Origin: Phycisphaerae bacterium
GTDB lineage: Bacteria > Planctomycetota > Phycisphaerae > UBA1845
DNA length: 36,921 nucleotides
Reading direction: 5' to 3'
Assembly (NCBI GenBank): GCA_029260055.1
Contig: JAJDDX010000337.1
Span: forward strand, 1 to 36,921
The notes beneath the pieces were generated by a model that did not search any database, was not told the DNA's origin, and was given only the letters and a program-made list of their open reading frames with translations. Positions within the stretch are counted from its first letter, which is position 1. Each line of letters opens with the position of its first letter. Made by a program: the position numbers and the translations under genes. Positions 9,160 through 23,580 of this stretch are shown here, piece after piece.

Positions 9160-10467
9160 TCATCCGCTGCGCTTGGGCGACTCCTTCAGGAACAGGCGCA
9201 TCTTGTCGAAGTCGAAGGTCAGGGCGTAGGGCCTGAAGAACGTGTGCGAGATGATCCCGCCGACGCGGAAGCCCATGTCGTACTCGGTCATCGGCGGGAA
9301 GGGGCCGAAGAACGCACTGATGCCGGAGCGCTGGGCGCTTCCCAGGGCGAGCTTGTCGATCGTGAACGGCGTCACCTTGACCGGTCCCCCGCCGCCCATG
9401 CCTTCGAAGGTCGGGAGGCCGGACAGGTCGATTCCCGCCGCCTTGATCGTCGAGTCCGGGCAGGTGAATCCTCCGCCGGCGAGCCCGGTATCGACGAACA
9501 CGAGTAGCGGCTCGCTGCCGTTGACCTGCCCCCACGTCACCATGAAGTGCTTTCGGCCCATCCAAAACGGCATGACGTGCGTCCCGTCGGATTCCGCCAC
9601 TTTGTCGAGGCGTGCCGTTGCTTTGTCCGACTTGCGCTGGAGGACAAGCTGCCCGTTCGGGTAGTCCAGGGTCGTGACGAAGTGGTAGAAGAGCACGGTG
9701 CCGATGATACCGACGGGGTCTTGGCCGTCCTGCGCGATGCCGGGCAGCGCGAGATCGAGCAGGTGCACGGGTACGTTCCTGACCTCGAACTCGCCGAGCT
9801 TGATCGAGTCGATCCTGGCGTGCCCGACGGAGGCTTCCATGCCGCCGGCGAAGGTCCCGGTGGTCTTGCCGAATCGCTTGGCGCCGATGGTCTTGGCGAA
9901 CTTCGGGTTGAGGTAGAGTTCGGACGCGCCGGTATCGATGAGGAGGGAGACCTCGTCTCCACCGTTGAAACGAGCCTTGATGATCGGCAGCGGATCGGTC
10001 TGCGCGAACTTGACATGCGTACTGTCCGCCTCGCCGTGGACCTCATAGGGGGTGATTCCCTTGAAGCTCGCCAGCTTGTCAGCCACTGCGGTCGAGCCCG
10101 TGGCACGGAGCAGCTTGGCTGCTTTTGCGAACTCGTCCTGGCGGTAGAACGCCTCGGCCAGCAAAGACCTGGGCCGATCTTCCTTCGGAAGTAGTTTCTT
10201 CGCCGCGCGGAGGTATCGCTCAGCCTCTTCGAAGCGGTTTGCGAGATGTGCGATTTCGCCGAGTCGCAGCGCGGCCTGGCCGTCCTCGGCGTCGTCGGCG
10301 AAGGCTTCCGCGTACGCTGTCCGCGCCTTGGCGAACTGGCCGACGCGGAACGACTCGTCACCGCGATCCCGCGGCCCGCCGTCCTCCTCGGCAAGAGCGG
10401 CCATCGTAAGCGAGGTCGAGAAGGTCATGGCGAGCATTGTGAATGCCAGGCATTTGAATCGGTTCAT
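9160..10467 (-). CDS. Periplasmic TPR plus double-DTG aspartyl-protease-like protein
   Basis: 435 residues from the ATG at 10467, which has GGAG 8 nt upstream and starts a clear signal peptide (MNRFKCLAFTMLAMTFSTSL). The frame remains open further upstream to 10821, but that part resembles nothing. Residues about 35-125 are TPR-like helices. Two retropepsin-like halves follow: LLIDTGASELYLNP (DTG at 178-180) and LLVFVDTGLAGGGF (DTG at 326-328). In retroviral-type proteases two DTG loops form one active site; here both are in one chain, as in bacterial Asp_protease_2-type proteins. Proteolytic activity is likely but not certain. The gene is convergent with the YVTN-propeller gene. Confidence 0.82.
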   Translation of the reverse strand: MNRFKCLAFTMLAMTFSTSLTMAALAEEDGGPRDRGDESFRVGQFAKARTAYAEAFADDAEDGQAALRLGEIAHLANRFEEAERYLRAAKKLLPKEDRPRSLLAEAFYRQDEFAKAAKLLRATGSTAVADKLASFKGITPYEVHGEADSTHVKFAQTDPLPIIKARFNGGDEVSLLIDTGASELYLNPKFAKTIGAKRFGKTTGTFAGGMEASVGHARIDSIKLGEFEVRNVPVHLLDLALPGIAQDGQDPVGIIGTVLFYHFVTTLDYPNGQLVLQRKSDKATARLDKVAESDGTHVMPFWMGRKHFMVTWGQVNGSEPLLVFVDTGLAGGGFTCPDSTIKAAGIDLSGLPTFEGMGGGGPVKVTPFTIDKLALGSAQRSGISAFFGPFPPMTEYDMGFRVGGIISHTFFRPYALTFDFDKMRLFLKESPKRSG

Positions 10468-10723
10468 CGGTGCAACTCCGGTACGAGCGGTCGAGATCTG
10501 CCGGGCGAGCCCCGCGTGCGGCTCGTCCTTTTCGAAGACGTTCACTTGCCACAGACGCTTGGCGTGACTGATCCACTTCAGGAAAAGCCGGATTTCCGCG
10601 ATTCGGCGGACAAAATCAGACGGCGCGTCCAGCCCCTGCGCATCGCTGGCTCCGTCAGGAATGGCTCGAGGAACGTCCGGCGCCGGGGACGAGCTCCGCC
10701 GCCACATTTGGATTGAACGTGCT
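10468..10723. other. Intergenic stretch, no supported gene
   Basis: 256 bases separate the protease-like gene from the end of the ubiquitin-like operon. A short hairpin (CGAGCC-ccgcgtgc-GGCTCG, near 10505-10524) is present without a T-run. The minus-strand frame is open throughout but lacks a ribosome site or family resemblance. A promoter for the gene at 10467 is expected here but not recognised. Confidence 0.4.
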
Positions 10724-11149
10724 CTAGCCGAGGATGAGCAGAGCGATAAGCAGGTAGAGCCAATAGCGGTTGAAGAGGCGGGCGATGCAGCCGAATACGT
10801 TTGTGTGAGCCAGGCCATCAATTGCCAAGACCGCGGCGAGTGCGACGAGGATGGCGGCTGCGGGGACCCAGAGCGGGTTGCTCTGCCAAGCGAGTCCGAA
10901 GTCGCCGTGGGTGGCGTAGGCGAATGCGCGTGTCAGGCCGCACAGCGGGCAGGCGCTTCCGGTTATCATTCGAAAGAAGCAGATCGGCAGTTTGTCCTCG
11001 ACGATGATCGACCGCAGTGCCCACGCGACGGGAAAGAGCGCCAGCAGTGATGCACTCCACAGCAGTCGGTAGAGGCGTCGCCTTGCGACGCGCGTCGGGC
11101 AGTGCGGCTCGCGCGTGTCCGTGTCGGGTTTATGCGTGGGCGCGGTCAT
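10724..11149 (-). CDS. DUF2752 membrane protein
   Basis: 141 residues. The diagnostic DUF2752 motif is present as GSACPLCGLTRAF near the middle, flanked by hydrophobic segments (LLWSASLLALFPVAWAL; LWVPAAAILVALAAVLAI; YWLYLLIALLIL), giving about three membrane passes. DUF2752 proteins are small membrane proteins of unknown function; the CPxCG pair suggests metal binding or redox chemistry. Its ATG overlaps the E2 stop codon (ATGA), so it is very probably translationally coupled to E2 and is the last gene of the operon. Whether it takes part in conjugation or is a passenger cannot be decided here. Confidence 0.8.
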   Translation of the reverse strand: MTAPTHKPDTDTREPHCPTRVARRRLYRLLWSASLLALFPVAWALRSIIVEDKLPICFFRMITGSACPLCGLTRAFAYATHGDFGLAWQSNPLWVPAAAILVALAAVLAIDGLAHTNVFGCIARLFNRYWLYLLIALLILG

Positions 11150-11607
11150 GACGCTGACAGGTCAAGTGCTTCCAGCGGCAGTGAGTCGATGTTGAGTTCG
11201 GCCCACTTGGCTGCGTGGGCGTTGAGCGGGCTCTTGGTGTTGTAGCTCTGGTACGTGATCATCTCGCCGATGCGGATGATCAGATCAGCCAGGCGTTGCC
11301 CCGCGCTCCAGTGGTCTCCGATGCATATCTTCGTCGGGTCGATGTTCGGGTGAAACACGGGCGTGATCATGCGACAAAAAGGCGGCCTGCGCGGGTAGTC
11401 GAGCGGAAGGTACAACTCCGCGCGGTGGGTGTCCGCTCGTTCGAATGAGTCAGTTCCTTCGGGTACGAGGCCCGCGACGCGATATTCGACTGTGTACTTT
11501 TCCGGCGGTGTGCCCTCGGTACCGACGAGACGAATGCGCGGGTGGTTGGCATAGACCCTTTGGACTTGCTCGTGGTCGGCTGCGAGTCTTCGAATTCTGG
11601 GGTTCAT
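11146..11607 (-). CDS. E2-like ubiquitin-conjugating enzyme (UBC fold)
   Basis: 153 residues, matching the minimal UBC-fold length. Visible E2 hallmarks in order are the YPRRPPFCR strand (compare YPxxPP in eukaryotic E2s), the HPN motif at residues 86-88 (VFHPNID), the catalytic Cys95 in KICIGDHW, and the helix ending SPLNAHAAKW, which matches the PLN-x2-AA segment of classical E2s. All elements needed for thioester formation and isopeptide transfer are present. It should take the Ubl from the E1 encoded three genes upstream and act with the adjacent RING protein. The ATG at 11607 has GGAG with a 6-nt spacing. It lies 34 nt after the RING gene and overlaps the DUF2752 gene by ATGA. Confidence in the family is high; the target is unknown. 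Confidence 0.92.
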   Translation of the reverse strand: MNPRIRRLAADHEQVQRVYANHPRIRLVGTEGTPPEKYTVEYRVAGLVPEGTDSFERADTHRAELYLPLDYPRRPPFCRMITPVFHPNIDPTKICIGDHWSAGQRLADLIIRIGEMITYQSYNTKSPLNAHAAKWAELNIDSLPLEALDLSAS

Positions 11608-11641
11608 GCGATACTCCGTCGGGCTCGTGGAGCCGGCTTAC

Positions 11642-12352
11642 TCAACCACCAAACGCTCCGTAGAACACGCCGGCAAGAAGCATTATGACGGACTGCGCCG
11701 CAGCCACCAGCAATGCTATCTTGCAGATCGCCCCGCGTATCGCCGGCAACGCCTCGATGGCTTCGCGGTGGCGCAAGTACCACATCGAGCCGAACAGGGC
11801 GACCAGTGGCGCGGCGCACGGGAGCAAGGCCAGTACCAATAGCCAGGTGCCGGTTCGTTGTACGGCCGGAAGTTGGCTTTCGGTCGTGCGCCGCGCACTG
11901 AAGGACGCGGCGTCTTCCGGAGCCGCCGAGGCGAAGGTGGCGCCGCAATGACGGCATCGGACCGCCGCAGCGAGGATGATCCGCCCACAACGCGGGCACG
12001 GCTTGTCTTCCTGGCCCCAGTGGGCCGCGGGGATTTCGAGGCTGTCTCGCTGCTCGGTCGCCGGTACCGCGGCACAGCCGTAGACGCCGCAACCGCCGTT
12101 GTATTCCCAGCACCCGTCGTGATAGATCGTCGTACACTCGGGGCAGGCCTTCGTGCCCTCGTCCGACGCGACCGCGCTCTGGCACACGGGGCAGAGTCCG
12201 CCCGCGGGCTCGGCGGCGGGCTGGATTCGGAACTTCTCGCTGCACTTCGGGCAGACTACTTTTCTTCCGATATGGGCGCGGCTCGCGTGGAACGATTGAG
12301 CGCACCGCGGGCAGCGAACGACGATCTTTCCCGGCTCTGACGCGTCGTCCAT
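11642..12352 (-). CDS. Membrane RING-like zinc protein, E3 ligase candidate
   Basis: 236 residues. Three zinc modules are visible: an N-terminal ribbon (C14, C17, C34, C37), a RING-like cluster (C54, C57, C70, C73, H78, C81, C88, C93), and a further ribbon (C119, C122, C133, C136). The YHDGCW and GGCGVYGC spacing is that of prokaryotic RING-type domains known next to bacterial Ub-like genes. Two hydrophobic segments (about 168-193 and 208-233) place it in the membrane with the zinc domains probably cytoplasmic. RING domains bind E2 and stimulate transfer, so this is the natural E3. It starts 6 nt after the FHA gene and is followed 34 nt later by E2. E3 activity is inferred, not shown. Confidence 0.85.
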   Translation of the reverse strand: MDDASEPGKIVVRCPRCAQSFHASRAHIGRKVVCPKCSEKFRIQPAAEPAGGLCPVCQSAVASDEGTKACPECTTIYHDGCWEYNGGCGVYGCAAVPATEQRDSLEIPAAHWGQEDKPCPRCGRIILAAAVRCRHCGATFASAAPEDAASFSARRTTESQLPAVQRTGTWLLVLALLPCAAPLVALFGSMWYLRHREAIEALPAIRGAICKIALLVAAAQSVIMLLAGVFYGAFGG

Positions 12353-12358
12353 CCGCCT

Positions 12359-13768
12359 TTACCTCTGTCGTGCCTGGAAGACGAACGTGGTCGCACCGAT
12401 ACGGATTCTGTCACCGTGGCGCAGTCTGGCGCGTTCTATGGGTCGGTCGTTGATCTGCAGCGGCTCTTCACGGGACTGGCGCTGGATTTCATAGTTGTCA
12501 CCCACGGCGCGGATGACCGCGTGGCGGTCCGCGACGGCGTCATCGTTGAACAGGTATATGTCCGAGCGCGGCGACGCCCCGACGTTCATGGTGTCCTTGA
12601 AGATGAGGAATTCCTTGCCCGCCAGGGGGCCTTCGGTCATGCGCAGCCACGCGTCGCGCGCGAGCAGTTCCACGATGCCGATCATGGCGCCGACGCTCGC
12701 GCCGATGACCACGAAGCCGGCCAGCCGGCTCCAGTGGGCGCTGGGTTTATCCACGCCGAGCATCAGTATGTCGATGGGGTCGAAAAGCAAACCACCCATG
12801 AGCCCGCCGACCAGACCGCCGAGGAACCCGTAGAGTACGAGGCGTCCGGAACGCAGCGCGAGCCCTTGCCCGAGGCCCATGGCCATTCCCGCGGCACTCC
12901 AGGCCAGCGCGCGGCCTCCCATTTGGGTGAGGAAGCCGAACGTCGTCAGTCCGGCGGCCGCATCTCCCTCCTGCGCCATCGCCAGGGCGTTCAGTGGCAT
13001 GTAGATCAGCCCCGCGATGATGCTGGAGACGAATCCGCCGATGAAACCGGCCAGCAACCCCACGACGCCGGCGAGCAAGGCGCGACGCAGCAATCGGCAC
13101 ACGGCGCCGTCGACGGCTCCGATCGCCAATCCCACGATCGCCGCGACGATCGGAAAGAGGAGTATGGCTGCGGCTGTAGAGCGAGCGCTGCGTTGCCCCA
13201 GCGTCATAGAGGCGTCCTGATCACTGTGGGGTGGTGGGTCGAGCACCACGAAGACGCCCAGTGCGACGCTGCTGTTTCCCGCTTCGAGGTACTCCAGGTA
13301 GACGCCGATCTCGTTGTCCACGGCCAGCCGTGTTATGTCCAGCGGTTCAGCCTCGCCGCCCGTGGTCAGCAGCTTTCCCTGGGTCACGAGCCAGATTTGC
13401 TCGTCGTTGATGCGGACCCATCCCACCGTATCCACATCGAAATCGCCGAACTCGTTACCGGGTACGGTCCGACTCGTGAACGAGTGGCTCACTTGGAGTC
13501 GTTCGATCGGGCCCTGGATGTATATGTAATCGTCGAAGTACGGCTCCACGATCGCCCATGCCGCCAGGGCGGCGAGCGCGCCGGTGACCATGAAGATGAA
13601 CCAGTTTCGGTAGTACCATCGTCCGGCGCGATCGCGCGACAGGTCGCTGTCGCCGCGCATGGATCTTTGTCGTTTGAGGAGGTCGTCGACGTGCGCACTT
13701 CGCGCGTCGTCGGTACTGATCCGTATGACCTCGTCCTGCGTACCCTGGGGTCGCTGTGTCACGGGCAT
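12359..13768 (-). CDS. Polytopic membrane protein with C-terminal FHA domain
   Basis: 469 residues. The layout is a cytoplasmic N-terminus of about 55 residues, one membrane segment (56-75), a soluble segment (about 80-195) and a block of several Gly/Ala-rich membrane helices (about 197-370). The C-terminal FHA domain (about 377-467) is seen from GPLAGKEFLIF, SPRSDIYLF, DRHAVI and LRHGDRIRIG. FHA domains usually bind phosphothreonine. Here the usual GR Arg is Ala398 and the Ser of SxxH is Ala413, while His416 and Asn440 remain, so binding may be non-canonical. The ATG at 13768 has GGAG 4 nt upstream. It sits between the JAB and RING genes and may be a membrane scaffold or substrate-recognition subunit. 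Confidence 0.85.
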   Translation of the reverse strand: MPVTQRPQGTQDEVIRISTDDARSAHVDDLLKRQRSMRGDSDLSRDRAGRWYYRNWFIFMVTGALAALAAWAIVEPYFDDYIYIQGPIERLQVSHSFTSRTVPGNEFGDFDVDTVGWVRINDEQIWLVTQGKLLTTGGEAEPLDITRLAVDNEIGVYLEYLEAGNSSVALGVFVVLDPPPHSDQDASMTLGQRSARSTAAAILLFPIVAAIVGLAIGAVDGAVCRLLRRALLAGVVGLLAGFIGGFVSSIIAGLIYMPLNALAMAQEGDAAAGLTTFGFLTQMGGRALAWSAAGMAMGLGQGLALRSGRLVLYGFLGGLVGGLMGGLLFDPIDILMLGVDKPSAHWSRLAGFVVIGASVGAMIGIVELLARDAWLRMTEGPLAGKEFLIFKDTMNVGASPRSDIYLFNDDAVADRHAVIRAVGDNYEIQRQSREEPLQINDRPIERARLRHGDRIRIGATTFVFQARQR

Positions 13769-13824
13769 TTCACTCCGCGGTATCTAGGTACTGAGCCATT
13801 CGCGCGCTCCGACAGATGGTTTCG

Positions 13825-14904
13825 TCAGTCGGAGCCGCCAGGCGCGGACCGGGGATCCTCTTCGCCTTGACCCTTCTCCAATTGCTCTTGCTCGAGCCGT
13901 TTCCTTTCTTCCTCTGCCTCCTGGGCTCTCAGCGCCGCCCGGACGCTCTCGATGAGCTTGCTTTCCATCTTCTCGGGCAGAGCCCAGCGGACCACTTGCA
14001 CGCCGAGCAGGTAGGTCTCGCCATCCATCTGGACGGGCACGGCTGCGAACCTGACCTGTTCGGGAGGGAACTGCGAGTCCGCGAACCGGTCGTAAATGCC
14101 GTAGCCTATAGCAGACACGATTCCGACGGCCAGCAGCATGCCGAGAGAGAGCACGACGCGATAGACGGCTGCCCGCTGTTCGTCCATCGCCTGGATGAGC
14201 TGCCCGAGGCGCTCCTCGACGGACTGCAGCGTCTTTGCGTGTTCGGCTCCGGTCGGCCCGTCGGCGTTTACCTCGCGAGCTTGAAGGCCCGCGCATTTTC
14301 GCTCGCGCCCTTCGACCCAGAAACGCGACAGGTGTTCGATGCCATTCTTCGTGTTGACACAGATGGCCTCGTCTCCGCCGAGTGGGTCGGTGACGAAGGC
14401 GATCTGGCGCGGGCCCGAGAAGAAATGACGTTGAATGAACAGGTCCATCTCGGAGAACTGCACCCCGAAGCCCGGATGGGTGTGGTACCATCCGACGATC
14501 TCGTGCTTGGCGAACTTCTCCTCGCGTACCTCGTGGATGCGATTCCAGGTCTCCTGGGTGAAGGTCACGTGGGCGGTGCCTGTCTTGGCCGCTTCGCCGC
14601 GGACGATCGCCTCGACGGACAGGAACAGTCCGTCGTCGTCCTCGCAGAAGAACCCGAGCAACACGCCGCAGATTTCGCGGTCAAGGTGCTCTTTGGCATG
14701 TGCCGTCAGGTCGGCATAGGCCTCTCGCGACATCGCCACGCGGACGGGTTCGTCCACGCCGTGCGGCCCGGGGAAGGTCTCGAAGCGGATCTTCGGCTTC
14801 CTCTCGGACCACCCACCGGCGGTGACGGAATCCGGCGAGGCGGGTTCGTTGTCGTTTTCGGGCTTGCGCCGAGGTGTGCCTCGCTGCCGACCTTCTCGGG
14901 ACAT
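13825..14904 (-). CDS. JAB/JAMM metalloisopeptidase with membrane anchor
   Basis: 359 residues from the ATG at 14904, preceded by AAGGAGGC at an 8-nt spacing; the GTG at 14922 overlaps that ribosome site and is rejected. The JAMM metal site is complete: Glu77 in REICGVLLG, the HTHPGFGVQFSEMD block giving His141, His143, Ser151 and Asp154. This fold removes ubiquitin-like proteins from conjugates or trims their tails. A single membrane segment follows at about 247-270 (VVLSLGMLLAVGIVSAIGYG), then about 75 residues ending in a charged Glu/Lys-rich coil. The order within the operon (E1, JAB, FHA, RING, E2) supports a deconjugating role at the membrane. Because the Ubl has no tail to remove, deconjugation is more likely than maturation. 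Confidence 0.92.
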   Translation of the reverse strand: MSREGRQRGTPRRKPENDNEPASPDSVTAGGWSERKPKIRFETFPGPHGVDEPVRVAMSREAYADLTAHAKEHLDREICGVLLGFFCEDDDGLFLSVEAIVRGEAAKTGTAHVTFTQETWNRIHEVREEKFAKHEIVGWYHTHPGFGVQFSEMDLFIQRHFFSGPRQIAFVTDPLGGDEAICVNTKNGIEHLSRFWVEGRERKCAGLQAREVNADGPTGAEHAKTLQSVEERLGQLIQAMDEQRAAVYRVVLSLGMLLAVGIVSAIGYGIYDRFADSQFPPEQVRFAAVPVQMDGETYLLGVQVVRWALPEKMESKLIESVRAALRAQEAEEERKRLEQEQLEKGQGEEDPRSAPGGSD

Positions 14905-14932
14905 GGTACAAGCCTCCTTCACCGCGCGTCGC

Positions 14933-16108
14933 TTACGACCACGCGAGGCAGTCCTGGCGATCTCCGGCCAATTCGATGCCCAGTACGTCGTCGCCGCGGC
15001 GTGCCCAGAGAATATCCCAGCGCGGCAGCCCGAGCTGACTTACCGTCAGGTCCAGCAGATCCGAGTCCTCGGTCAGGCTGTGCAGAAAGTGCGGCACGCA
15101 CTCGGTCTTGCAGTTGTCGCATAGGGCGTCTTGCTCGCCGACGTGTTCGATCGGCTGAAGCATGCGTTTGCTCGTCGCGCAGGCGGGGCACTCGATGCGT
15201 TCGACGAGTTCGCGCGGGAGGTCGATCGCCTCGAGTCCGCCCAGCGCGGTGGAGGCCCGCTGCCAGATCGTGCGCAGGGGCGTGGCGGACGTGAGATCCT
15301 CCGCGCTGTCGATCGCGGGGGCGTCCGTGTGCCATGGGCAATCGGGGGCGACGGGATAGTCGACGTTGTACGACGTGTGCCCGAGTCCTTCGAACACGAA
15401 GCCCTTTCCGGCGAGTGCGTCGAGCCCATGGAGGCGTTTGAGCACCTCCTGGGCTTGCAGGGCGCCGATGACGGAGGCGGTCGTGGGGGTGGTGGGTGTA
15501 CCTCCTCCGGCGTGCGCCTGGCGGGCCAGCAGTGAACAGGAGCGTCTTTTGTTGAGCAGGTCCCAGTCAACTCGACTCATCGTACATTCATAGCAGGCCG
15601 TCGCGGGCGGCGCGAAGCCGCGGACTATTCCACCCAGCGCCTCGATCCCGCCGTCGATCCAGGGTCGCCCGAGTTGAGCGGCGCAGCGGTTGACGAAGAC
15701 CCTGGCTTCTCGGTTGTCCAGGCACCCGACGACGACATCCGCCCATCGGAAGTAGCCGAGGCCCACGTCAGAAAGGACGTTGCCGACCAGCGCAGCCGCT
15801 TTGATGTCGGGACAGAGCCGCGTGGCAGCTTGAACAGCCACGGTGGCCTTCGGCTCACCGCAGTCCGCTTCGCCAAAGAGCACGGATCGGCAGAGGTTAC
15901 TCTGCTCGATCCGGTCCATGTCGGCTACGATGATGTGCCCGGCTCCCAGCAGCGCCAGGTTCTTGATGACTTCGTTTCCCAGCGCACCGGCGCCGACGAC
16001 GAGCACCCGGGCGGTGCGCACGACCGCCTGGTCCCACCAGGGGATTGCGGCAAGGCGCGCGAAGCGGCCCTCTTTCACGACAATCGGGTTGGTTTCGCCG
16101 TGCCCCAT
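14933..16108 (-). CDS. ThiF/E1-like Ubl-activating enzyme
   Basis: 391 residues from the ATG at 16108 (GAGGAA 6-7 nt upstream); the GTG at 16114 directly abuts that site and is less likely. The adenylation Rossmann fold shows GAGALGNE near residue 39, the VADMDRIEQSNLCR segment with the ATP-binding Asp and Arg, Lys87, and CLDNREAR. A zinc pair CYEC (172 and 175) and the candidate catalytic Cys191 (RRSCSLLAR) follow, as in ThiF/MoeB-type E1s. The C-terminal third carries two further CxxC pairs (CPAC and CDNC) that could form a separate zinc module. It should adenylate the C-terminus of the adjacent 93-aa Ubl and pass it to E2. The Ubl stop lies 10 nt upstream, so the two genes are coupled. Confidence 0.92.
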   Translation of the reverse strand: MGHGETNPIVVKEGRFARLAAIPWWDQAVVRTARVLVVGAGALGNEVIKNLALLGAGHIIVADMDRIEQSNLCRSVLFGEADCGEPKATVAVQAATRLCPDIKAAALVGNVLSDVGLGYFRWADVVVGCLDNREARVFVNRCAAQLGRPWIDGGIEALGGIVRGFAPPATACYECTMSRVDWDLLNKRRSCSLLARQAHAGGGTPTTPTTASVIGALQAQEVLKRLHGLDALAGKGFVFEGLGHTSYNVDYPVAPDCPWHTDAPAIDSAEDLTSATPLRTIWQRASTALGGLEAIDLPRELVERIECPACATSKRMLQPIEHVGEQDALCDNCKTECVPHFLHSLTEDSDLLDLTVSQLGLPRWDILWARRGDDVLGIELAGDRQDCLAWS

Positions 16109-16118
16109 GCGCACTTCC

Positions 16119-16400
16119 TCAGCGAGCCGCCGTGCCGGCCGTGATTTCCGGTTGAAGACGCAAGTCGTCGTTGTGCTGGATACTCGCCTGCGCGAAGGTA
16201 TCGCTGTCGAGCAGTTGTCGCCCGGTGCGCTTGTGGTGGAGCTTGTAGCTCAGCAGTTGGCCGTCCGGGCTGGATAGGGGGAGGTTCATCCGTTCGACCA
16301 GGATCACGAGGAGGCGATCGACGGTTACGTCATCCGGGGCTTCGACCTGTTGGCTTCGGCTACCGGTGACGTCCCAGACACGCACTTGGACCATTGACAT
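16119..16400 (-). CDS. YukD-like ubiquitin-fold protein (Ubl)
   Basis: 93 residues with a beta-grasp pattern: strand VQVRVWDVTG, strand SQQVEAPDDVTV, helix DRLLVILVERMNL, strand LLSYKLHHKRTG, and a final strand NDDLRLQPE. YukD-family proteins have this ubiquitin-like form and pair with E1/E2/JAB genes in bacteria. The C-terminus is ITAGTAAR without a GG and without a tail, so the E1 would have to activate Arg93. The ATG at 16400 has GGAAG 5 nt upstream; an internal ATG at 16394 is possible. It lies directly upstream of the E1 gene. It is most likely the conjugated modifier; a mere structural partner cannot be excluded. Confidence 0.85.
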   Translation of the reverse strand: MSMVQVRVWDVTGSRSQQVEAPDDVTVDRLLVILVERMNLPLSSPDGQLLSYKLHHKRTGRQLLDSDTFAQASIQHNDDLRLQPEITAGTAAR

Positions 16401-16449
16401 CTGTGCTTCCGTCTTTCAATGAGGGTTCATGTGGTTTCTGCTGATCGAG

Positions 16450-16743
16450 TCACGCCTGTCCGGGGAGAGGCTGCGCCCGCGCGCTGTCCTGGACGTGGCT
16501 CAGCAGGACGCGTATGACTTCCTGATGTCGCTTGCTGTTCGGCTTGGTCGGTATGGTGAACACGTCGCGTCCGACCTGAAGCGACAGGGCATGGTTCTTC
16601 GACATCAGGACGCAGTCTATCTCGGCATAGGCGAAGCGTTTCTTCCCGCCGCCGATGACCGTTTGCTGGAAGGTCACGCCGCTGTCATCCACTTGAATCG
16701 AGCGAGCTTCGAAGGCCGTGTTGGCGGTAAACTTAAGTGTCAT
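16450..16743 (-). CDS. Hypothetical 97-aa operon protein, possibly PH-like
   Basis: 97 residues with no family I can name. The sequence alternates short strands (LKFTANTAFEARSIQVDD, VTFQQTVI, KRFAYAEIDCVLMS, ALSLQVGRDVFTIPT) and ends with a helix (SKRHQEVIRVLLSHVQ). This strand-rich layout with a C-terminal helix resembles small PH-like bacterial domains, but the assignment is weak. The start at 16743 is an ATG with GGAGA about 13 nt upstream, a long spacing. It sits between the double B-box gene and the Ubl gene in the same direction, so it is probably part of the conjugation system, perhaps as an adaptor or a substrate. Confidence 0.65.
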   Translation of the reverse strand: MTLKFTANTAFEARSIQVDDSGVTFQQTVIGGGKKRFAYAEIDCVLMSKNHALSLQVGRDVFTIPTKPNSKRHQEVIRVLLSHVQDSARAQPLPGQA

Positions 16744-16761
16744 TGTTTGCGTCTATCTCCA

Positions 16762-17808
16762 TCACCCGATCAGGATGCCGATCACGATCAAGAGGAGTGC
16801 TGCGCCGAGGATCAGGCCGTTCCAGATCGTACCGAGCCACACGATAGCCGGCGTTTTCAGTTGACGCTCGAACGATGCCGCGCCGAGGGCGACGCCGATC
16901 AGCGCCGGCATGACGACGAGGTAGATGAAGAGCATTCCGAGAATCTCATCTTCTGCCTCCGTGGTCACTTCACCGAAGATCGCTCCAGTCATGAGCAAGG
17001 CCGTGCTTACCGTCGCCAAGGTCGCGAGCACCACCGACGAGATGGCGAGTGTCTTCCGCTTTCCGGACAGACGCGTTTGCGGGTCCACGGCGCACGTGGG
17101 GCACAGGTGGACATCGCCGGGCAGGCTGAAGTCACACGTCGCACAGACCGCGGATCGGCACCTGGCGCAGCGGCGGGTCGCCGGCACGGTCGGATGAGTA
17201 ACGCATACGGAGCCGTCCGCAAGCGACATGGCGGGCGCCGTCGCGGCAAAGGCGTTCGGACCCTGGCCGGCAGAGGGAGCTCCGGAGCCGGCGCATCGCG
17301 GACATAGCACCGATCCATCGGCCTGCGGGAATGCGCAGGTCTGGCACATCAGGGCATGGCATCGCACGCAGGAGAAGGCCGCGTCCATGTCCGGGTGCTG
17401 CACGCACGTGGTCGAATTCGCGCCTTCCGGTTCGGCCGATGAGATAGCGAAGATCCCCGGCGAGTCGGGGTCTTCCACGCGGAAGGAACTGCCACACTTG
17501 CACTTGGCGTTTTGCCCGATGGTTGAGCGAGGGGCGCTATACTTGTGCCCACACGATGGGCACTCCGCGACCAGGTTGTGATTGTGACCGGTAGCGGCAT
17601 GGCCCAGGGGGATCGCCATGTCGGGCGCATGCTCCGCAGTGGCGACAGGGATCGGCGGCGGCGCGGCGACGGGTGTGGGTCGCGCCGCGGGCGGGGCAGC
17701 CGGGCGCAGGAAGAGGACATCGTAGTCCGCTCCGTGCGCGTGGCACCTGACTTCGGTTTGGCTAATCGCTTCAAGCGGCGATCGGCACTCCGGGCACATG
17801 AGTTGCAT
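16762..17808 (-). CDS. Membrane protein with zinc ribbons and two B-box-like fingers
   Basis: 348 residues from the ATG at 17808, preceded by AGGTGG at about 8 nt; a GTG at 17820 is an alternative. The N-terminal zinc ribbon (CPEC near residue 5, CHAHG) is followed by a proline-rich linker, a second ribbon (ECPSCGHKY then CKCG), and two B-box-like zinc fingers. These are near residues 135-172 (CVQHP ... CVRC ... CQTC ... CPRC) and 202-239 (CVTHP ... CARC ... CATC ... CPTC). Three hydrophobic helices close the protein (about 254-278, 292-314, 320-346). B-boxes in eukaryotes pair with RING domains in TRIM proteins, and here they are on separate chains. It is probably a zinc-dependent membrane adaptor of the operon. 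Confidence 0.8.
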   Translation of the reverse strand: MQLMCPECRSPLEAISQTEVRCHAHGADYDVLFLRPAAPPAARPTPVAAPPPIPVATAEHAPDMAIPLGHAATGHNHNLVAECPSCGHKYSAPRSTIGQNAKCKCGSSFRVEDPDSPGIFAISSAEPEGANSTTCVQHPDMDAAFSCVRCHALMCQTCAFPQADGSVLCPRCAGSGAPSAGQGPNAFAATAPAMSLADGSVCVTHPTVPATRRCARCRSAVCATCDFSLPGDVHLCPTCAVDPQTRLSGKRKTLAISSVVLATLATVSTALLMTGAIFGEVTTEAEDEILGMLFIYLVVMPALIGVALGAASFERQLKTPAIVWLGTIWNGLILGAALLLIVIGILIG

Positions 17809-17890
17809 GCTTATGGCCACCTATCAGAGAGCCCGCGGATCGTCGGCCGGTCGGTCAGTGTACGGCGAGACGCCGAACCGGGCGAATGCG

Positions 17891-18283
17891 TCAGGTTCCG
17901 GCGATCTGCAGGATCACAAAGAGCACCCAAAGCACGAGTCCGACAATCCCGACGACCAGACCGGCGGTCGCCTTCCCCGAACCGCTGAGGTTGGGGTTGG
18001 CGGCCATCATCTTCTTCGCCTTCAGCGCCTTCGAGATGGCAAGGGGCTCGAGAATGATGCCAAAACAGAAAAGCCCGATGAGCGCGTACTTCAGCGCCTC
18101 GCCGGCCTCGGGGCACTCGATCATCGCTTCGGGAGCGATGGGTTGCCCTCCCACCGCGAGCACTTTGCAGGACCCGCAGTACTTTGCGCCGTGTATCTCG
18201 ACCAAGCAATTGCCGCAGAACGGTTCCGCACATCCGGTGCATCGGTCTGCCGCAGGGACTCCGGCGTGGTTCTTGCACTGCAT
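17891..18283 (-). CDS. Small B-box-like membrane protein, first gene of the Ubl operon
   Basis: 130 residues from the ATG at 18283; an in-frame extension to 18325 lacks support, whereas AAGGAG lies 10 nt before 18283. The N-terminal B-box-like finger has C3, H6, C15, C18, C23, C26, H31, C36 and C39 (CKNHAGVPAADRCTGC ... CGNC ... CGSC). Two hydrophobic segments follow at about 57-80 and 103-127; the second (KATAGLVVGIVGLVLW) resembles the end of DUF4190-type proteins. It is separated from the larger B-box gene by about 80 nt. It is the leading gene of the conjugation operon and a likely membrane partner of it. Its function is unknown. Confidence 0.75.
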   Translation of the reverse strand: MQCKNHAGVPAADRCTGCAEPFCGNCLVEIHGAKYCGSCKVLAVGGQPIAPEAMIECPEAGEALKYALIGLFCFGIILEPLAISKALKAKKMMAANPNLSGSGKATAGLVVGIVGLVLWVLFVILQIAGT

Positions 18284-18389: not shown

Positions 18390-18650
18390 GTTGAATCTCG
18401 AAGCGACGAGAGGCGTCCTTGCGGGGCATGTTGTGCGCGGGGGGCGACAGTGGGGGCGGTGGAGACCGACATAGCCGGTTGGGGCTACGATGTCGGGAGC
18501 CTATCTGTGGCGTTTGGGCGCAGTGTCGTGCGCGGTTGTGCGGGTCTTCAGATGAGTAGATTTGCCGAAGGAGGCCGGTGACTGGTTTGACGGGTCTTGT
18601 GCGGGCGAGCTTGCTATGTCTGCCAGCCTTGGCATGGCAGGCAAAGTGAC
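18390..18650. other. Intergenic region between tRNA-Leu and the Ubl operon
   Basis: Open frames in this stretch are short and unsupported. A hairpin (CTGCCA-tgccaaggc-TGGCAG on the minus strand, near 18620-18641) lies just downstream of the tRNA and could end its transcript or mark processing, but it has no T-tract. Confidence 0.3.
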
Positions 18651-18734
18651 TGCGGATGAGAGGACTCGAACCTCCACGGGGTTGCCCCCACTGGCACCTG
18701 AAGCCAGCGCGTCTGCCAATTCCGCCACATCCGC
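18651..18734 (-). tRNA. tRNA-Leu (anticodon CAG)
   Basis: The minus strand folds into a class II tRNA of 84 nt. It has a perfect 7-bp acceptor stem (GCGGATG with CATCCGC), a D-arm beginning GGCGGAATTGGCAGACGC, an anticodon stem CTGGC/GCCAG around loop TTCAGGT, a long variable arm (GGGGGCAACCCC) and a T-arm with GGTTCGAGTCC. The anticodon CAG reads CUG Leu. The CCA end is not encoded. The gene lies between two minus-strand operons. Confidence 0.95.
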
Positions 18735-18786
18735 ATTCGCTTCGAGCGTCGGGTGGCCGATGGCAGCCGCCCGAGTCGAATCAACT

Positions 18787-18881: not shown

Positions 18882-19715
18882 TCAGGTGCCCTGGCGCGGG
18901 ACCAGTTCGCCGCTCGCGGACTCGATCCAGCCCGATTTGCCGTCGGGGAGCTCGATGTTCCACCACGCCCCGCGGCGTCCGCGGAGGGTGAACTCGGTGC
19001 CCGGCTGAAGGGGTTGCTCGAACTGTCGCTGGTATCCGGTGCCGGGCCCCTTGTAGGTGACGACATCCATGGCGAGCAGCACGCCGGCCGGTTCGTTGCG
19101 GTCGGAGAAGAGGCTGACGCCGACCGACGCGCCGAAGCTGGCGGCTGCGAAGAGACACGCCAGCGCGAGCCCGGACAGCGCTCTGCGCGGGACGAAGTTT
19201 CGCAGTGCCAGCACCACCCAGCACGCGGCGAAGGCGACCATGGCGATTTGGGCTCGAAGGGGCAGCGCGATCGAGTAATGAAGGAAGAACAACCCGCGCA
19301 GGAGCGTACTGCGTCCGCGCGGCTCGATCGCGGTGAGACATCGGGATCGCGCCTCCTTGAGGTTGTTGGCGAGCAGTGGGTCGCCGGGGATCAGTCGCTC
19401 GGCGCGGCGGTAGTGCAGGATGGCGAGGCCCACGTCGCCGGCCTGGAGGTAGCAGTTGGCGAGGTTGTATTCGAGCTTGCCGCTTATGATGCCGCTGTCG
19501 GCCAGGCCTTCGAGGCGCTGGGCGGCTGACCGGAAAAGATGTACCGCTCGGGCTCGCTGCTTGGCGTGCATCTGTTGGGCCTGGTCGAATTGCTCCAAGG
19601 CGAGTTCGAACTCGGCGGATGGGTCGCCGAGCAGTGACTGTGCAAAGGCGGGCGCAGCGGCAAGGGCCGGCCAGCAAAGGGCGAGCGCGACGAGGGCTCG
19701 GCGGTCGACCTTCAT
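18882..19715 (-). CDS. batE: BatE-like protein: TPR, membrane segments, SH3 domain
   Basis: 277 residues from the ATG at 19715 (AAAGGA 7 nt upstream), overlapping the batD stop by ATGA. A signal segment (KVDRRALVALALCWPALAAA) is followed by TPR-like helices, with LEYNLANCYLQAGDVGLAILHYRRAERLIPG split across residues about 95-125 and typical of BatE. Two hydrophobic helices (about 150-195) and a C-terminal bacterial SH3-like domain (VTYKGPGTGYQ ... GAWWNIELPDGKSGWI) follow. BatE is thought to act with BatA-D in the cell envelope in stress tolerance; the biochemical role is not settled. It is the last gene of the operon. Confidence 0.82.
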   Translation of the reverse strand: MKVDRRALVALALCWPALAAAPAFAQSLLGDPSAEFELALEQFDQAQQMHAKQRARAVHLFRSAAQRLEGLADSGIISGKLEYNLANCYLQAGDVGLAILHYRRAERLIPGDPLLANNLKEARSRCLTAIEPRGRSTLLRGLFFLHYSIALPLRAQIAMVAFAACWVVLALRNFVPRRALSGLALACLFAAASFGASVGVSLFSDRNEPAGVLLAMDVVTYKGPGTGYQRQFEQPLQPGTEFTLRGRRGAWWNIELPDGKSGWIESASGELVPRQGT

Positions 19716-21505
19716 CGCGCGGTCCTTTCGATGCGTTTGATCCACGATCGAATGTCGGCGGCGGCCTGATCGAGCGAGGCTGAATCGAGCGAGCCCGGGG
19801 CGTATCGCGCTGCGTTGCATCTATCGAGGAAGGTCACGATTTCAGCGATCAGGCCTCCGTCGACGCCATGGTCGTCGAGCGTCGCGGCTATCTCGACGGG
19901 TGTCAGTTCTCCGGGGGGAAGGTTGAAGCGATCCGAGACGTACGCCTTGACGGCTTCGGCAAGTGCTGCGCGTTGGTCACTTTCCGCGGTCTGGCGCGAC
20001 GCGGCGGTGAGGCGTGCGTGGGCGTTGCGCTGCGCTCTGCGGCGTCTGGCGTATCCCACGTCCCGGCGGAGCCGTCTAGTCCTCTGCGCGCCGATCGTGA
20101 CGATCAACCACAAGGCCGGCGGTGCCGCGAGCATGGCGATCCACGGCGGTGTCAGTGTGAAGGCATGGCTGGCGAGCACCTGGTTTGCGTCGACGTAGTT
20201 CCGTTCGATACCGCCGGCCAGCACGGTCAGCTTGGTGCCGTTACCGCCGCCCGCGGTGTCGTCCGTCAGGGCGAATGTGCTCGACCCCGGCGACGCAGGA
20301 TCGACCGTCAGCAAGATCGGCGGACTCGTGAGTGTGACGTACTCTTCCTTCCGCAGATCGAAGTAGGACCACGAGATCGGGGGGATCGTCTGCTGCCCGG
20401 CCTGCTTGGGGAAGATGGCTCGCCTGAAGGTCTTTTGCCCCCGTTCCACGTCACCGACCAGCTCGTCTTTCGTGTAGTCGAAACGGCTCGCGAGTTCGGC
20501 ATGCCTGGCGAGATCGGGGCCGGCGATGCTCTCGAGCGGCCTGCCGCTGATCGTGATCGTGAGCGTCACGGGCTTGCCCTGTTCGACGCGTCTCGGCATG
20601 GCATTGACCGCGAGTTTGTAGTGGCCGACGGCGCCGGTGTAGTTCTCCGGCCTGCCCTCGTCGGGGGCGGCTTTGACGGTGACGGTGATGGCGTCGGCGC
20701 GAGCGGTTTCTTTTCGGCTTCGGGTGACCTCGTATGATCCGAAGAAGCCGCGGCGCACATCGGTGGGGTAGCGGGCGGTGACGAAGATGGGTCCCACCTG
20801 CGTCTCGCCCACCGTTTCGGCTCGAACGGTTTGCACCACCTTGAACAGCTCGTAGCGGTGGCGCTGGCCCTTCGAATCGGTGAGCTGGGTTTCGCTGGAT
20901 GTCGCTCGGCCGTTGGCGAACACGGAGAACTGTGAACGTGCTAGATCGACCACGCTGCGGAGCAGGTTGAGCGGAATGGTTCGGCCGTTGATGACGACCT
21001 TGCGGACACCGATGGTCAGCGTGGCGGTGTAGGACTCCGTCACGTAAAGGGTCGTCGGCTCGACATCCATCTCGACGAAGAGGAACTTGTCGGCGCGTGG
21101 CGAGGTATCCACCTTCGGTTCGCGCACCACGATCTTCACGGGCTTCGTCTCGTAGGTCTTGCCGCCGGCTTCGACGGAGAGCGGGCCGAGCTGATAGGTG
21201 CCTATGCGAACGCCCGTTAATTTCAGGCTGTATGTATAATCGGTTCGTGAGGTCCTTTGCCCACCTACGATCGACATGCGGCTATTCATGGCCGGGTTCG
21301 CGTTGACCAGATTGATCTCGAGGCCTTCCGGTACCACGGCCTGAGGCGCGCTGGGTCTCTCGGTGTTGGTGCAGACGAGCTGAATGTCGGCGACCTCCCC
21401 GACCTCGAGGACGCGTGAGCCGATGTGCAGTTCGACACCGGGCTGCTGAGCCGCCGCCGCGGTCGCTGCTGCCAAGGGGATCAAGATGGCCGCAATGCGC
21501 GTCAT
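19712..21505 (-). CDS. batD: BatD-like envelope protein
   Basis: 597 residues. A signal peptide (MTRIAAILIPLAAATAAAAQ) is followed by successive beta-sandwich domains: VELHIGSRVLEVGEVADIQL, IGTYQLGPLSVEAGGKTY, YKLAVNAMPRRVEQGKPVTL. This is the order seen in BatD (oxygen-tolerance family). A membrane helix near residue 450 (WIAMLAAPPALWLIVTI) precedes a cytoplasmic helical tail containing DRFNLPPGELTPVEI, which is common in BatD-type tails. It directly follows the batC gene with no gap and overlaps batE. The large domain is probably periplasmic and interacts with the VWA proteins. Confidence 0.88.
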   Translation of the reverse strand: MTRIAAILIPLAAATAAAAQQPGVELHIGSRVLEVGEVADIQLVCTNTERPSAPQAVVPEGLEINLVNANPAMNSRMSIVGGQRTSRTDYTYSLKLTGVRIGTYQLGPLSVEAGGKTYETKPVKIVVREPKVDTSPRADKFLFVEMDVEPTTLYVTESYTATLTIGVRKVVINGRTIPLNLLRSVVDLARSQFSVFANGRATSSETQLTDSKGQRHRYELFKVVQTVRAETVGETQVGPIFVTARYPTDVRRGFFGSYEVTRSRKETARADAITVTVKAAPDEGRPENYTGAVGHYKLAVNAMPRRVEQGKPVTLTITISGRPLESIAGPDLARHAELASRFDYTKDELVGDVERGQKTFRRAIFPKQAGQQTIPPISWSYFDLRKEEYVTLTSPPILLTVDPASPGSSTFALTDDTAGGGNGTKLTVLAGGIERNYVDANQVLASHAFTLTPPWIAMLAAPPALWLIVTIGAQRTRRLRRDVGYARRRRAQRNAHARLTAASRQTAESDQRAALAEAVKAYVSDRFNLPPGELTPVEIAATLDDHGVDGGLIAEIVTFLDRCNAARYAPGSLDSASLDQAAADIRSWIKRIERTAR

Positions 21506-22417
21506 CTACCAGTCCTTGTCCGCCGGCGCGACTTGCACCCTTTCGACGCGCTGGGGCTTACGCTTCTGGCGGTCGCGCAGCGCCTGCATCAGCTCGCGCA
21601 GTTTTCGCTCGGCATCTTCGCGGGAGTCCTCTTCGCTCTTCTGGGCTTGCTGTTCCTGCTGTTCCTTTTGCTCTTGCTCGGACTGTTGCTGCTCTTGTTC
21701 TTCGCTCTGCTGTTGGTCTTGCTGTTGCTGATCCGACTCTTGCTCTTGATCCTGGCTTTGTTGTTGCTGTTGATCTTCGTTCTTCTCTTGTTCCTGCTGC
21801 TGGTCGGATTGTTGCTTCTCTTGGTCTTGTGACTCTTGTTCTTCGTTCTTCTCGCCGTCTTCGTTCTGTTGTTGCTCTTGTTGCTGCTGTTCCATTTGCT
21901 GTTTGAGCGTACGCCACATCGAGGCGGCTTTGAAGTTGGCGTCGTTGGCGGCTGGATGATCGGGCCGGTTTCCCAGCACGGTCTGATACCGCTGCATGGC
22001 CTTCTCGAGGCTTGCGATCGCCTCCTGCGGGTTTTCGGTTTGCTTGAGTGCTTCGGCGTGGTAGGTCGTGCCGACGCTGTAGATGGCATCGTCGACCAGC
22101 GCGTCGTTCTTGGCGGTGGCGGCGTTTTCGAACGACGCCCGCGCTGCCTCATAGTCTTCCATGGTGTAATGCGCGAGGCCTTCGACGAAGTCGATCTCAT
22201 GCGCAGCCGGTTCGATAGTTCGCGCGTGCTGGTAGGCCGTCAAGGCGCCGGCTGGGTCGTTGGCGAGAAGAAGTTGGTTGCCCGCCCGGACGGCCTGGGC
22301 CGCGCCGAGATCGGCATAGACTGACCGTGTGGGCGTGTCAGCGGGGGGCGGCGCTGCCTCCTGCGCGAGCGCGGGGGCGGTCAAGAGGATAGCTATGATG
22401 AAGAGCGTGCGTGTCAT
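21506..22417 (-). CDS. batC: BatC-like TPR protein with long Gln/Glu-rich coil
   Basis: 303 residues from the ATG at 22417 (AGGAGG 7 nt upstream), overlapping batB by ATGA. A signal peptide (MTRTLFIIAILLTAPALA) is followed by TPR-like helices (GNQLLLANDPAGALTAYQHA, FVEGLAHYTMEDYEAARASF). A very low-complexity Gln/Glu/Asp/Lys/Ser stretch spans residues about 173-263. The C-terminus ends VAPADKDW, the KDW ending common in Bat TPR proteins. The low-complexity region is encoded mostly by CAG/CAA/GAG/GAA codons, which produces spurious Leu-rich frames on the other strand. Confidence 0.85.
   Translation of the reverse strand: MTRTLFIIAILLTAPALAQEAAPPPADTPTRSVYADLGAAQAVRAGNQLLLANDPAGALTAYQHARTIEPAAHEIDFVEGLAHYTMEDYEAARASFENAATAKNDALVDDAIYSVGTTYHAEALKQTENPQEAIASLEKAMQRYQTVLGNRPDHPAANDANFKAASMWRTLKQQMEQQQQEQQQNEDGEKNEEQESQDQEKQQSDQQQEQEKNEDQQQQQSQDQEQESDQQQQDQQQSEEQEQQQSEQEQKEQQEQQAQKSEEDSREDAERKLRELMQALRDRQKRKPQRVERVQVAPADKDW
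21629..21901. repeat. Low-complexity Gln/Glu codon tract within batC
   Basis: About 270 bases of degenerate CAG/CAA/GAG/GAA codons encode an almost uninterrupted Gln/Glu-rich coil. No fixed period is evident, so it is a compositional repeat rather than a clean microsatellite. It may vary in length between strains. Confidence 0.7.
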
Positions 22418-23580
22418 GCCCCAACCTCCTGTTGCCACACCCGTTGCGGAGCGTCGTCAATCGCGAGCCGCCGCTGTGCGATGATGGTCTCTGCACCGAG
22501 CAGGATCAAGGCGGCCACCAGAAAGAGCTGATACCTGGGCTTGTGGCGCATCCGCTCTTCCGTGCTCAATTCCGTCTTGCGCATGCCCGCGACGGCGTCG
22601 ACCAGCAGGTTCAGGTCATCCAGGGGTGCGTATTGGCCGCCGCCCGCCTGGGCCGCCAGCCGCAGCCCGTCGACATCGAGCTTTGAAAAGACGATTTGTC
22701 CGTCGTGCAGCAGCGGTTTGTTCGATCCGCCCTGAGCCGAGGGTACCTGAGCCCCGGCTGAGAGCGAGGGATCGCCGATTCCGATCGTGAAGAGGCGGAT
22801 GCCGAACTGCTCGTAGACGGACTTGGCAGCCTCCTGCGCTCCGCCCTCGTGGTCTTCGCCGTCGGTGAACAGGAGGATGAGCTTGGTGGCCTCGGCCGGT
22901 GACTTGGCGAACAGATCGGTCGCCTCTGCGATCGCTCGGCCGATCGCCGTACCTCCGCGTGGGACGATGCCGACCCGGATGTCACGGAGTTTGGATCGAA
23001 AGGCTATGTGATCGGTGGTTAGGGGCAGGCGCATGGAGGTCGAGCCGGCGAAGGCGACGAGCCCGAGCCGGCTCGCGCCGCCGAACACATCTCGCTCGAT
23101 GAGCTGCTGTCTGATGTCTTGCTTGGCTCGGGCCAGGCGATTCGGTTTCACGTCTTGTACGAGCATCGAACGAGATACGTCGAGTGCCACTACGATGTCG
23201 ACACCGTAGGCGCGCTGCTTTTCGAGGTAGATGCCCCAGCGCGGGCCAAGGATCGCCGCGACAAGCGCGACCAGTGCGATGACGACCAATCCGGCACGAA
23301 GGGCCTGCCTTGCCGGGCTCGATTGCGGTGCGAGAAGGCCGGCGAGTTCGGTCGAGACGAATCGGTTCATTGCCCTCTGCCGCCGGAACAGGCTGTACAT
23401 GAAGAGGAGGCCCGCGGCTGGTACCGCGGTGATTAGCCACCACAGGTCGGCATTGTCGAACGGCAGGTCGCCGGCATCGGTGACGACGACCACCGCGCCG
23501 CCGATCGCGGCCAGTGCCATCGGAACGGCGAGTACCCACAGGAACCAGGGCCATGTCGGATGGAGAGACCGTCGTCTCAC
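22414..23580 (-). CDS. batB: BatB-like VWA membrane protein
   Basis: 388 residues. The GTG start at 23580 has AGGAGG 5 nt upstream and overlaps the batA stop (GTGA). Three N-terminal hydrophobic segments (about 10-33, 47-63, 96-112) precede a von Willebrand A domain with an intact MIDAS: DVSRSMLVQD (Asp134), and FTDGEDHEGG later. A C-terminal membrane helix (YQLFLVAALILLGAETII) follows. BatA/BatB pairs are typical partners of MoxR ATPases. The MIDAS binds a divalent metal and mediates protein contact. It is probably inner-membrane with the VWA domain outside. Confidence 0.88.
   Translation of the reverse strand: MRRRSLHPTWPWFLWVLAVPMALAAIGGAVVVVTDAGDLPFDNADLWWLITAVPAAGLLFMYSLFRRQRAMNRFVSTELAGLLAPQSSPARQALRAGLVVIALVALVAAILGPRWGIYLEKQRAYGVDIVVALDVSRSMLVQDVKPNRLARAKQDIRQQLIERDVFGGASRLGLVAFAGSTSMRLPLTTDHIAFRSKLRDIRVGIVPRGGTAIGRAIAEATDLFAKSPAEATKLILLFTDGEDHEGGAQEAAKSVYEQFGIRLFTIGIGDPSLSAGAQVPSAQGGSNKPLLHDGQIVFSKLDVDGLRLAAQAGGGQYAPLDDLNLLVDAVAGMRKTELSTEERMRHKPRYQLFLVAALILLGAETIIAQRRLAIDDAPQRVWQQEVGA

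Follow-up and report, generated by a model that had tools for sequence, protein, structure and literature searches.

Positions 10724 to 18283 of contig JAJDDX010000337.1 (Phycisphaerae bacterium, assembly GCA_029260055.1), a stretch of 36,921 nucleotides analysed here at its full length and referred to as the window, hold a minus-strand operon that encodes a ubiquitin-like protein (Ubl), an E1, an E2, a RING-like protein, a JAB/JAMM metallopeptidase and a polytopic membrane protein with a degenerate FHA domain. We consider it reasonably probable that these genes form a membrane-tethered, reversible ubiquitin-like conjugation system. The rationale for this reading is an AG terminus that is invariant among the aligned Ubls, the conservation of catalytic residues in the E1, E2 and JAB proteins, and the recurrence of the same gene set across several bacterial phyla.

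Results

A tightly packed operon with a predicted conjugation core

Inspection of open reading frames (ORFs) in the window reveals ten tightly packed ORFs between 18283 and 10724, all in one orientation on the minus strand, as an earlier note made from this DNA sequence had described. Read 5' to 3', the intergenic gaps are 82, 18, 49, 4, 10, 56, 6 and 34 bp, followed by a 4-bp ATGA overlap between the E2 gene and a terminal DUF2752 gene. Seven of the ten products score above the Pfam curated cut-offs (YukD, ThiF, JAB, FHA, Prok-RING_1, UQ_con and DUF2752), and NCBIfam and PADLOC searches of the operon proteins added only generic E1 and JAB matches. Transmembrane segments were called by a hydropathy scan of the products, and residue and fusion counts refer to aligned relatives from about 107 loci, labelled Lnnn. 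The six core genes, in operon order, are as follows:

16119..16400, minus strand: YukD-like Ubl, 93 residues, ending in ...PEITAG/TAAR (Pfam YukD)
14933..16114, minus strand: E1 (ThiF/E1 adenylation domain) with candidate catalytic Cys193 (ThiF 7e-50)
13825..14922, minus strand: JAB/JAMM metallopeptidase with one predicted transmembrane segment and a charged tail, 365 residues (JAB 1.6e-12)
12359..13768, minus strand: polytopic membrane protein with six predicted transmembrane segments, a beta insert at residues 82-176 and a C-terminal degenerate FHA domain (FHA 6e-9, Yop-YscD_cpl 4e-13)
11642..12352, minus strand: RING-like protein (Prok-RING_1, C4HC3) with flanking zinc ribbons and two predicted transmembrane segments, 236 residues (Prok-RING_1 5e-10)
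11146..11607, minus strand: E2 (UBC fold), 153 residues, with HPN86-88, Cys95 and Trp100 (UQ_con 5e-12)

The remaining four genes encode two B-box-like proteins, a PH-like protein and the DUF2752 protein. The hydropathy scan predicts transmembrane segments in JAB (one), the FHA protein (six), the RING-like protein (two), the B-box proteins (two and three) and DUF2752 (three), and none in the Ubl, E1, E2 or PH-like protein. This distribution agrees with the earlier proposal that the cascade works at the membrane, and the polytopic FHA and DUF2752 proteins named there are borne out by both Pfam and predicted segments.

The Ubl ends in an invariant AG

The Ubl consists of a single YukD domain (5e-6, 27.6 bits against a cut-off of 27), and its profile reaches ubiquitin and archaeal Ubl structures (single-domain chains) with E values of 0.002-0.04. 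An AG terminus is present in 103 of 103 aligned Ubls, where it is preceded by PEIT, STFV, PEIV, PEVV, PEMV or PVLV. Thirty-two of these proteins stop directly at AG, 57 carry a tail of 1-12 residues, 11 a tail of 13-60 residues, and three are fused to a long downstream segment. The tails beyond AG are not conserved, that of the window being TAAR. Errors in start-site assignment are irrelevant to this terminus because the stop codon fixes the C terminus. Such a pattern of AG plus a short tail is as expected for a precursor trimmed to its terminal Gly, and it is chiefly because the AG terminus is invariant that we read the Ubl as a probable modifier for conjugation, trimmed by JAB if it has a tail. 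The three fusions to a long downstream segment occur in L112:8384-8971, L140:7421-8926 and L142; in L112 the downstream segment holds a zinc ribbon, a layout like that of the ubiquitin-S27a precursor.

Catalytic residues of the E1, E2 and JAB proteins are conserved

The E1, for which GTG 16114 and ATG 16108 are both possible starts, contains a GAGALG motif, and its nucleotide-site residues are invariant in 107 rows. Cys193, present in 107/107 relatives, is by its position the putative catalytic cysteine. A zinc site (C174/C177/C259/H262) and a C-terminal zinc ribbon (C309/C312/C332/C335) are nearly invariant as well. Searched against the PDB, the E1 profile matches eukaryotic UBA7/UBA1 at about 1e-45 and ThiF/MoeB at about 1e-32, and matches to the NCBIfam ThiF/MoeB models fall far below cut-off. 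In the E2, HPN is kept in 81/81 relatives, Cys95 in 79/81 and Trp100 in 81/81, and the E2 profile finds E2 structures at 6e-10. The JAMM motif, HTHP...S..D in the window, is kept as HxHP..S..D in 112/112 relatives. Pfam assignments and residue conservation thus agree with the YukD-like Ubl, E1 with ATP site and cysteine, E2 with HPN and Cys95, RING-like protein and JAMM peptidase that the earlier note had recognized by eye.

A degenerate FHA domain and a RING-like membrane protein

What might the FHA protein do in such a system? Its AlphaFold model (predicted local distance difference test, pLDDT, 86) contains six transmembrane helices and a C-terminal FHA fold, for which Foldseek returns GarA/OdhI as closest (7e-9), followed by YscD (5e-5). 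Only 3 of 71 FHA relatives retain the Arg that binds phosphothreonine, and the window has Ala398 in its place. Phosphothreonine signalling was rejected as the main role of this domain, the binding Arg being absent from 68/71 relatives. Moreover, 17 genes encode an E2-FHA fusion (those inspected being clostridial), and eight genes encode an FHA-RING fusion. Because the Arg is lost and E2-FHA fusions occur, we infer that the FHA protein acts as a membrane scaffold for the E2 and not as a phospho-sensor. In EssC and MxiG, too, the FHA domains are devoid of binding residues or of activity and function in contacts between subunits (PMC10765036).

The RING-like protein belongs to Prok-RING_1, a family that we take to stem from Burroughs, Iyer and Aravind (2011). 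Its ligands C54, C57, C70, C73, H78, C81, C88 and C93 are intact in about 107/108 relatives, and a Trp after the sixth ligand is kept in 102/108. This C4HC3 order is the one reported for prokaryotic RINGs (PMC11354881).

The core recurs across bacterial phyla

Of 392 genomes from the phylum, 29 contain an E1 orthologue, and a set of 20 close relatives gave one good match only. A cross-phylum scan with one genome per species yielded at least 80 loci in Planctomycetota, Verrucomicrobiota, Bacillota, Acidobacteriota, Armatimonadota, Lentisphaerota, Riflebacteria and others. From 107 non-redundant loci, the 60 with at least 1.5 kb upstream and at least 7 kb downstream of the E1 were used for neighbourhood counts, in which the Ubl (57), JAB (58), FHA (45), RING (48) and E2 (56) genes lie on the strand of the E1; all six core genes share one strand in 40/60 loci. 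This arrangement is far beyond chance, and chance neighbourhood was rejected since the core recurs across several bacterial phyla. An E2 outside the UBC fold, an E1 outside the ThiF family or a merely accidental neighbourhood would have spoken against the cascade proposed in the earlier note; profile searches assigned the E2 to UBC and the E1 to ThiF, and relatives keep the gene set together. A second architecture (L053-L069) comprises Ubl, E1, E2 and JAB; FHA is mostly missing from it, and RING matches are few.

In a quick tree built from sources that include metagenome-assembled genomes, the E1 of the window falls in a fully supported nine-row clade. Because this clade mixes Planctomycetota, Verrucomicrobiota and Riflebacteria, it suggests transfer, without amounting to proof. 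A mobile or phage-borne element found little support, as the E2 has no phage match and the E1 a single plasmid match among 72,556 records. On the cyanobacterial plasmid locus L154 (NC_019754.1 38825-42302), ThiF, two small hypothetical proteins, E2 and Mov34 lie in a row. The complete planctomycete chromosome of strain syqfu (CP087563) carries two operons of different types, L041 and L042.

A trypsin-like protease in sister operons

In 39 loci, including 34 of the 68 FHA-type loci, a gene for a trypsin-like serine protease lies in or beside the operon. It is often fused behind the RING (RING-Trypsin_2) in Pirellulales-like genomes and is free-standing in Clostridia. Of 40 aligned domains, 35 show both the serine and the histidine motif and the other 5 the serine motif only, and the hydropathy scan places the protease on a membrane side that varies by clade. 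None of the loci that carry the second B-box or the PH-like gene contains the protease; since those loci form one clade, this exclusion counts as one evolutionary event and not nine. A search of the window's own genome for a proteasome gave two matches. One of them, the proteasome-family gene at L152 (G000:C106), lies in AT-rich DNA, unlike the GC-rich window as judged by eye, and may come from a contaminant contig.

Accessory genes and genomic surroundings

The four accessory genes are:

17891..18283, minus strand: protein with a B-box-like zinc finger and two predicted transmembrane segments (DUF4190-like), 130 residues (Pfam, hydropathy)
16762..17808, minus strand: protein with a zinc ribbon, two B-box-like domains and three predicted transmembrane segments, 348 residues (Pfam, hydropathy)
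16450..16743, minus strand: soluble protein with a predicted PH-like fold, 97 residues (AlphaFold and Foldseek)
10724..11149, minus strand: DUF2752 small membrane protein, 141 residues, three predicted transmembrane segments (DUF2752 1.3e-15)

Of the two B-box membrane proteins named in the earlier note, the transmembrane segments hold up and the B-box calls are borderline. The 130-residue protein matches B-box at 1e-3 (19.3 bits, below the cut-off of 24.1) and DUF4190 at 2e-8 (34.3 bits, just below the cut-off of 35), and the 348-residue protein matches zf-B_box over two stretches at 4e-5, exactly at the cut-off (24.1 bits). Orthologues of the former occur in L041, L043, L071, L073, L075, L076 and L077, and relatives of the latter in the same clade. 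The 97-residue protein has no Pfam match; its AlphaFold model (pLDDT 86, predicted template modelling score 0.75) contains seven strands and one helix, and the best Foldseek matches are PH domains (probability 1.00). Because these matches have a template modelling score of about 0.6 and an E value of only 2e-3, the PH-like assignment is good but not certain. Homologues are found in L041, L073, L075 and L077. The DUF2752 gene lies on the same strand as the E1 in 13/60 loci. The earlier note took the combination of genes to be one not known to be described, which overstates its novelty: only the B-box/PH/DUF2752 set is peculiar to a small clade, whereas the core of YukD-like Ubl, E1, JAB, FHA, RING and E2 is common across phyla. 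That note did not mention the invariant AG, the FHA degeneracy, the fusions of E2 to FHA or the protease of sister operons.

No flanking gene recurs widely beside the operon in relatives. Just upstream, a tRNA-Leu (CAG) gene (window 18650-18735, minus strand) is a possible integration point, and further upstream lies a Bat-type cluster on the same strand (BatD, BatA, VWA, DUF58, TPR; window 18885-26703). Downstream on the same strand, a gene at window 9160-10821 encodes TPR repeats and a retropepsin-like aspartyl protease, one candidate start of which gives a signal peptide by eye. This gene was rejected as an eleventh operon member since it was not seen beside the operon in relatives.

Discussion

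From the domains, conserved catalytic residues, operon conservation, AG terminus, FHA degeneracy and E2-FHA and RING-protease fusions read in these sequences, we infer the following scheme, from its reaction steps and E3 role to its topology, substrates and outcome. The Ubl would be made as a precursor or end directly in ...AG, and the membrane-anchored JAB would trim any tail (here TAAR). With ATP, the E1 would adenylate the terminal Gly, take the Ubl as a thioester on Cys193 and hand it to Cys95 of the E2, which the polytopic FHA protein, having lost phosphothreonine binding, would keep at the membrane on its cytoplasmic side. An E3 or substrate adaptor would be the most likely role of the RING-like membrane protein. 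Since that protein is predicted to be membrane-bound, the tag would probably go to proteins of the membrane or envelope, among them possibly the zinc-finger membrane proteins encoded in the same operon. JAB would additionally take the tag off, and the B-box, PH-like and DUF2752 proteins may be readers, adaptors or substrates at the membrane that are specific to the clade. Control or turnover of envelope proteins would be the likely outcome, and sister operons supply a trypsin-like protease; regulation or turnover of envelope proteins is our leading guess.

Several points weigh against this scheme. The Ubl terminus is AG and not GG, conserved zinc ligands alone do not imply RING E3 function, and the case as a whole is built on sequence. 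Transmembrane calls come from a hydropathy scan, and the predicted topology of the protease differs between clades. No result of the analysis points to substrates or purpose, and turnover is the weakest step because the trypsin-like protease is missing from the clade to which the window belongs.

Could the cascade dispense with an E3? Its RING-like and B-box proteins might be zinc scaffolds or Ubl readers, with the E2 modifying whatever the FHA protein brings. The second architecture, mostly without FHA and with few RING matches, is consistent with this idea, as is the fusion of RING-like domains to proteases and FHA. However, the strong conservation of the zinc ligands and of the Trp after the sixth ligand, together with the company that RING genes keep with FHA-type operons (48/60), leaves it a possibility to which we lean less. 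An alternative hypothesis is antiphage defence, in which the Ubl would be put on phage or host proteins upon infection and the membrane proteins would act as sensors or effectors, as proposed for Bil and for systems of the cyclic oligonucleotide-based antiphage signalling (CBASS) type. Bil, itself an E1/E2/JAB operon, acts in defence. Defensive E1/E2/JAB operons are also known from CBASS (PMC10097602, PMC11153139), and the patchy spread within the phylum and the mixed-phylum E1 clade, which could reflect transfer, would suit such a role. The lack of a phage match for the E2 and the lone plasmid match of the E1 argue in the other direction, as do the generic character of the PADLOC matches on the operon itself and a PADLOC search of 113 flanking genes, in which no family occurs in more than three genes and several are generic enzymes (no baseline); a Pfam tally of the same genes was uninformative, likewise having no baseline. 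We regard defence as unlikely.

The family name YukD raises a further question, namely whether the Ubl is a non-covalent structural subunit as in type VII secretion, the E1 and E2 relatives being vestigial. A degenerate FHA accompanies a Ubl in type VII systems too (PMC10765036, PMC9600267), and the YukD of B. subtilis is reportedly unconjugated (PMC5845737, PMC1779556). Yet the window's own genome has one YukD only and none of the type VII substrate WXG100 (the EssC/EccC ATPase was not searched for), for which reason the type VII reading of YukD was rejected; with the invariant AG terminus and the intact catalytic residues of E1, E2 and JAB, non-covalent action is very improbable. A sulfur-carrier role in cofactor biosynthesis of the ThiS/MoaD type could draw on the membership of the E1 in the ThiF/MoeB superfamily, but the E2, RING and JAB genes, the NCBIfam scores and the ranking of eukaryotic E1s above ThiF/MoeB by the E1 profile make this the most far-fetched of the alternatives.

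If membrane-tethered conjugation is correct, a complete cascade of E1, E2, E3 and deconjugase, its E2 being of the canonical HPN type, would operate at the membrane in bacteria of several phyla, outside the defence contexts studied so far, and would bear on the assembly of the eukaryotic ubiquitin system. Tentatively, and with more doubt than confidence, we suggest that the operons may represent a distinct, widespread Ubl class. Its E2 would either form part of a polytopic membrane protein or dock onto one through a phosphate-blind FHA, so that tagging would occur at the membrane only; it would be coupled there to a membrane protease, which is trypsin-like in sister clades, or to B-box/PH adaptors in the clade of the window. 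The question is directly testable because cultured carriers exist, namely strain syqfu and Lacipirellula limnantheis.

Comparison with known systems

A literature search found no experimental study of an FHA/RING/E2-type Ubl operon. Bacterial Ubl-E1-E2-RING-JAB operons with YukD-like Ubls, with the same core enzymes as here, were reportedly predicted by Burroughs, Iyer and Aravind in 2011. Published work may or may not cover the FHA scaffold with its degenerate domain, the AG terminus and the alternation of trypsin-like protease with B-box/PH genes. We know of no FHA membrane scaffold or B-box genes in the Caldiarchaeum operon. That operon is archaeal, unlike the one described here, and shares with it a Ubl, E1, E2, RING and, for processing the Ubl precursor, a JAMM protease (PMC5654768, PMC6043591). 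Bacterial Ubl-E1-E2-RING-JAB systems are on record as predictions (PMC7159879, which cites Burroughs et al. 2011), and earlier types are found in PMC1779556. The FtsH ternary conflict systems, which have planctomycetes among their hosts, likewise contain JAB, E1, a RING-type E3 and Ubl/E2 proteins; their Ubl, however, is fused to E2 and EAD1, and their vWA, MoxR and FtsH components were not found here (PMC7159879).

Type VII secretion (YukD/EsaB, EssC FHA) shares the Ubl fold and an FHA without phosphate-binding residues (PMC10765036) but has no E1, E2 or JAB, and its YukD is reported to be unconjugated. The Cap2/Cap3 pair of type II CBASS and 6A-MBL use E1, E2 and JAB chemistry (PMC10097602), to which the NCBIfam matches here are weak; in contrast to the present operon they have a fused E2-E1, no separate Ubl, and a nucleotide cyclase or MBL partner. 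In Bil (BilABCD), a Ubl, E1, E2 and JAB are encoded in one operon and the Ubl is matured by JAB, as proposed here (PMC11354881). BilA, however, has two Ubl domains, whereas the window's Ubl has one YukD domain in 93 residues; BilB has a CEHH motif in place of the invariant HPN of this E2; and BilD combines an inactive and an active adenylation half in a system described without the FHA and RING core that characterizes the operon presented here (PMC11354881).

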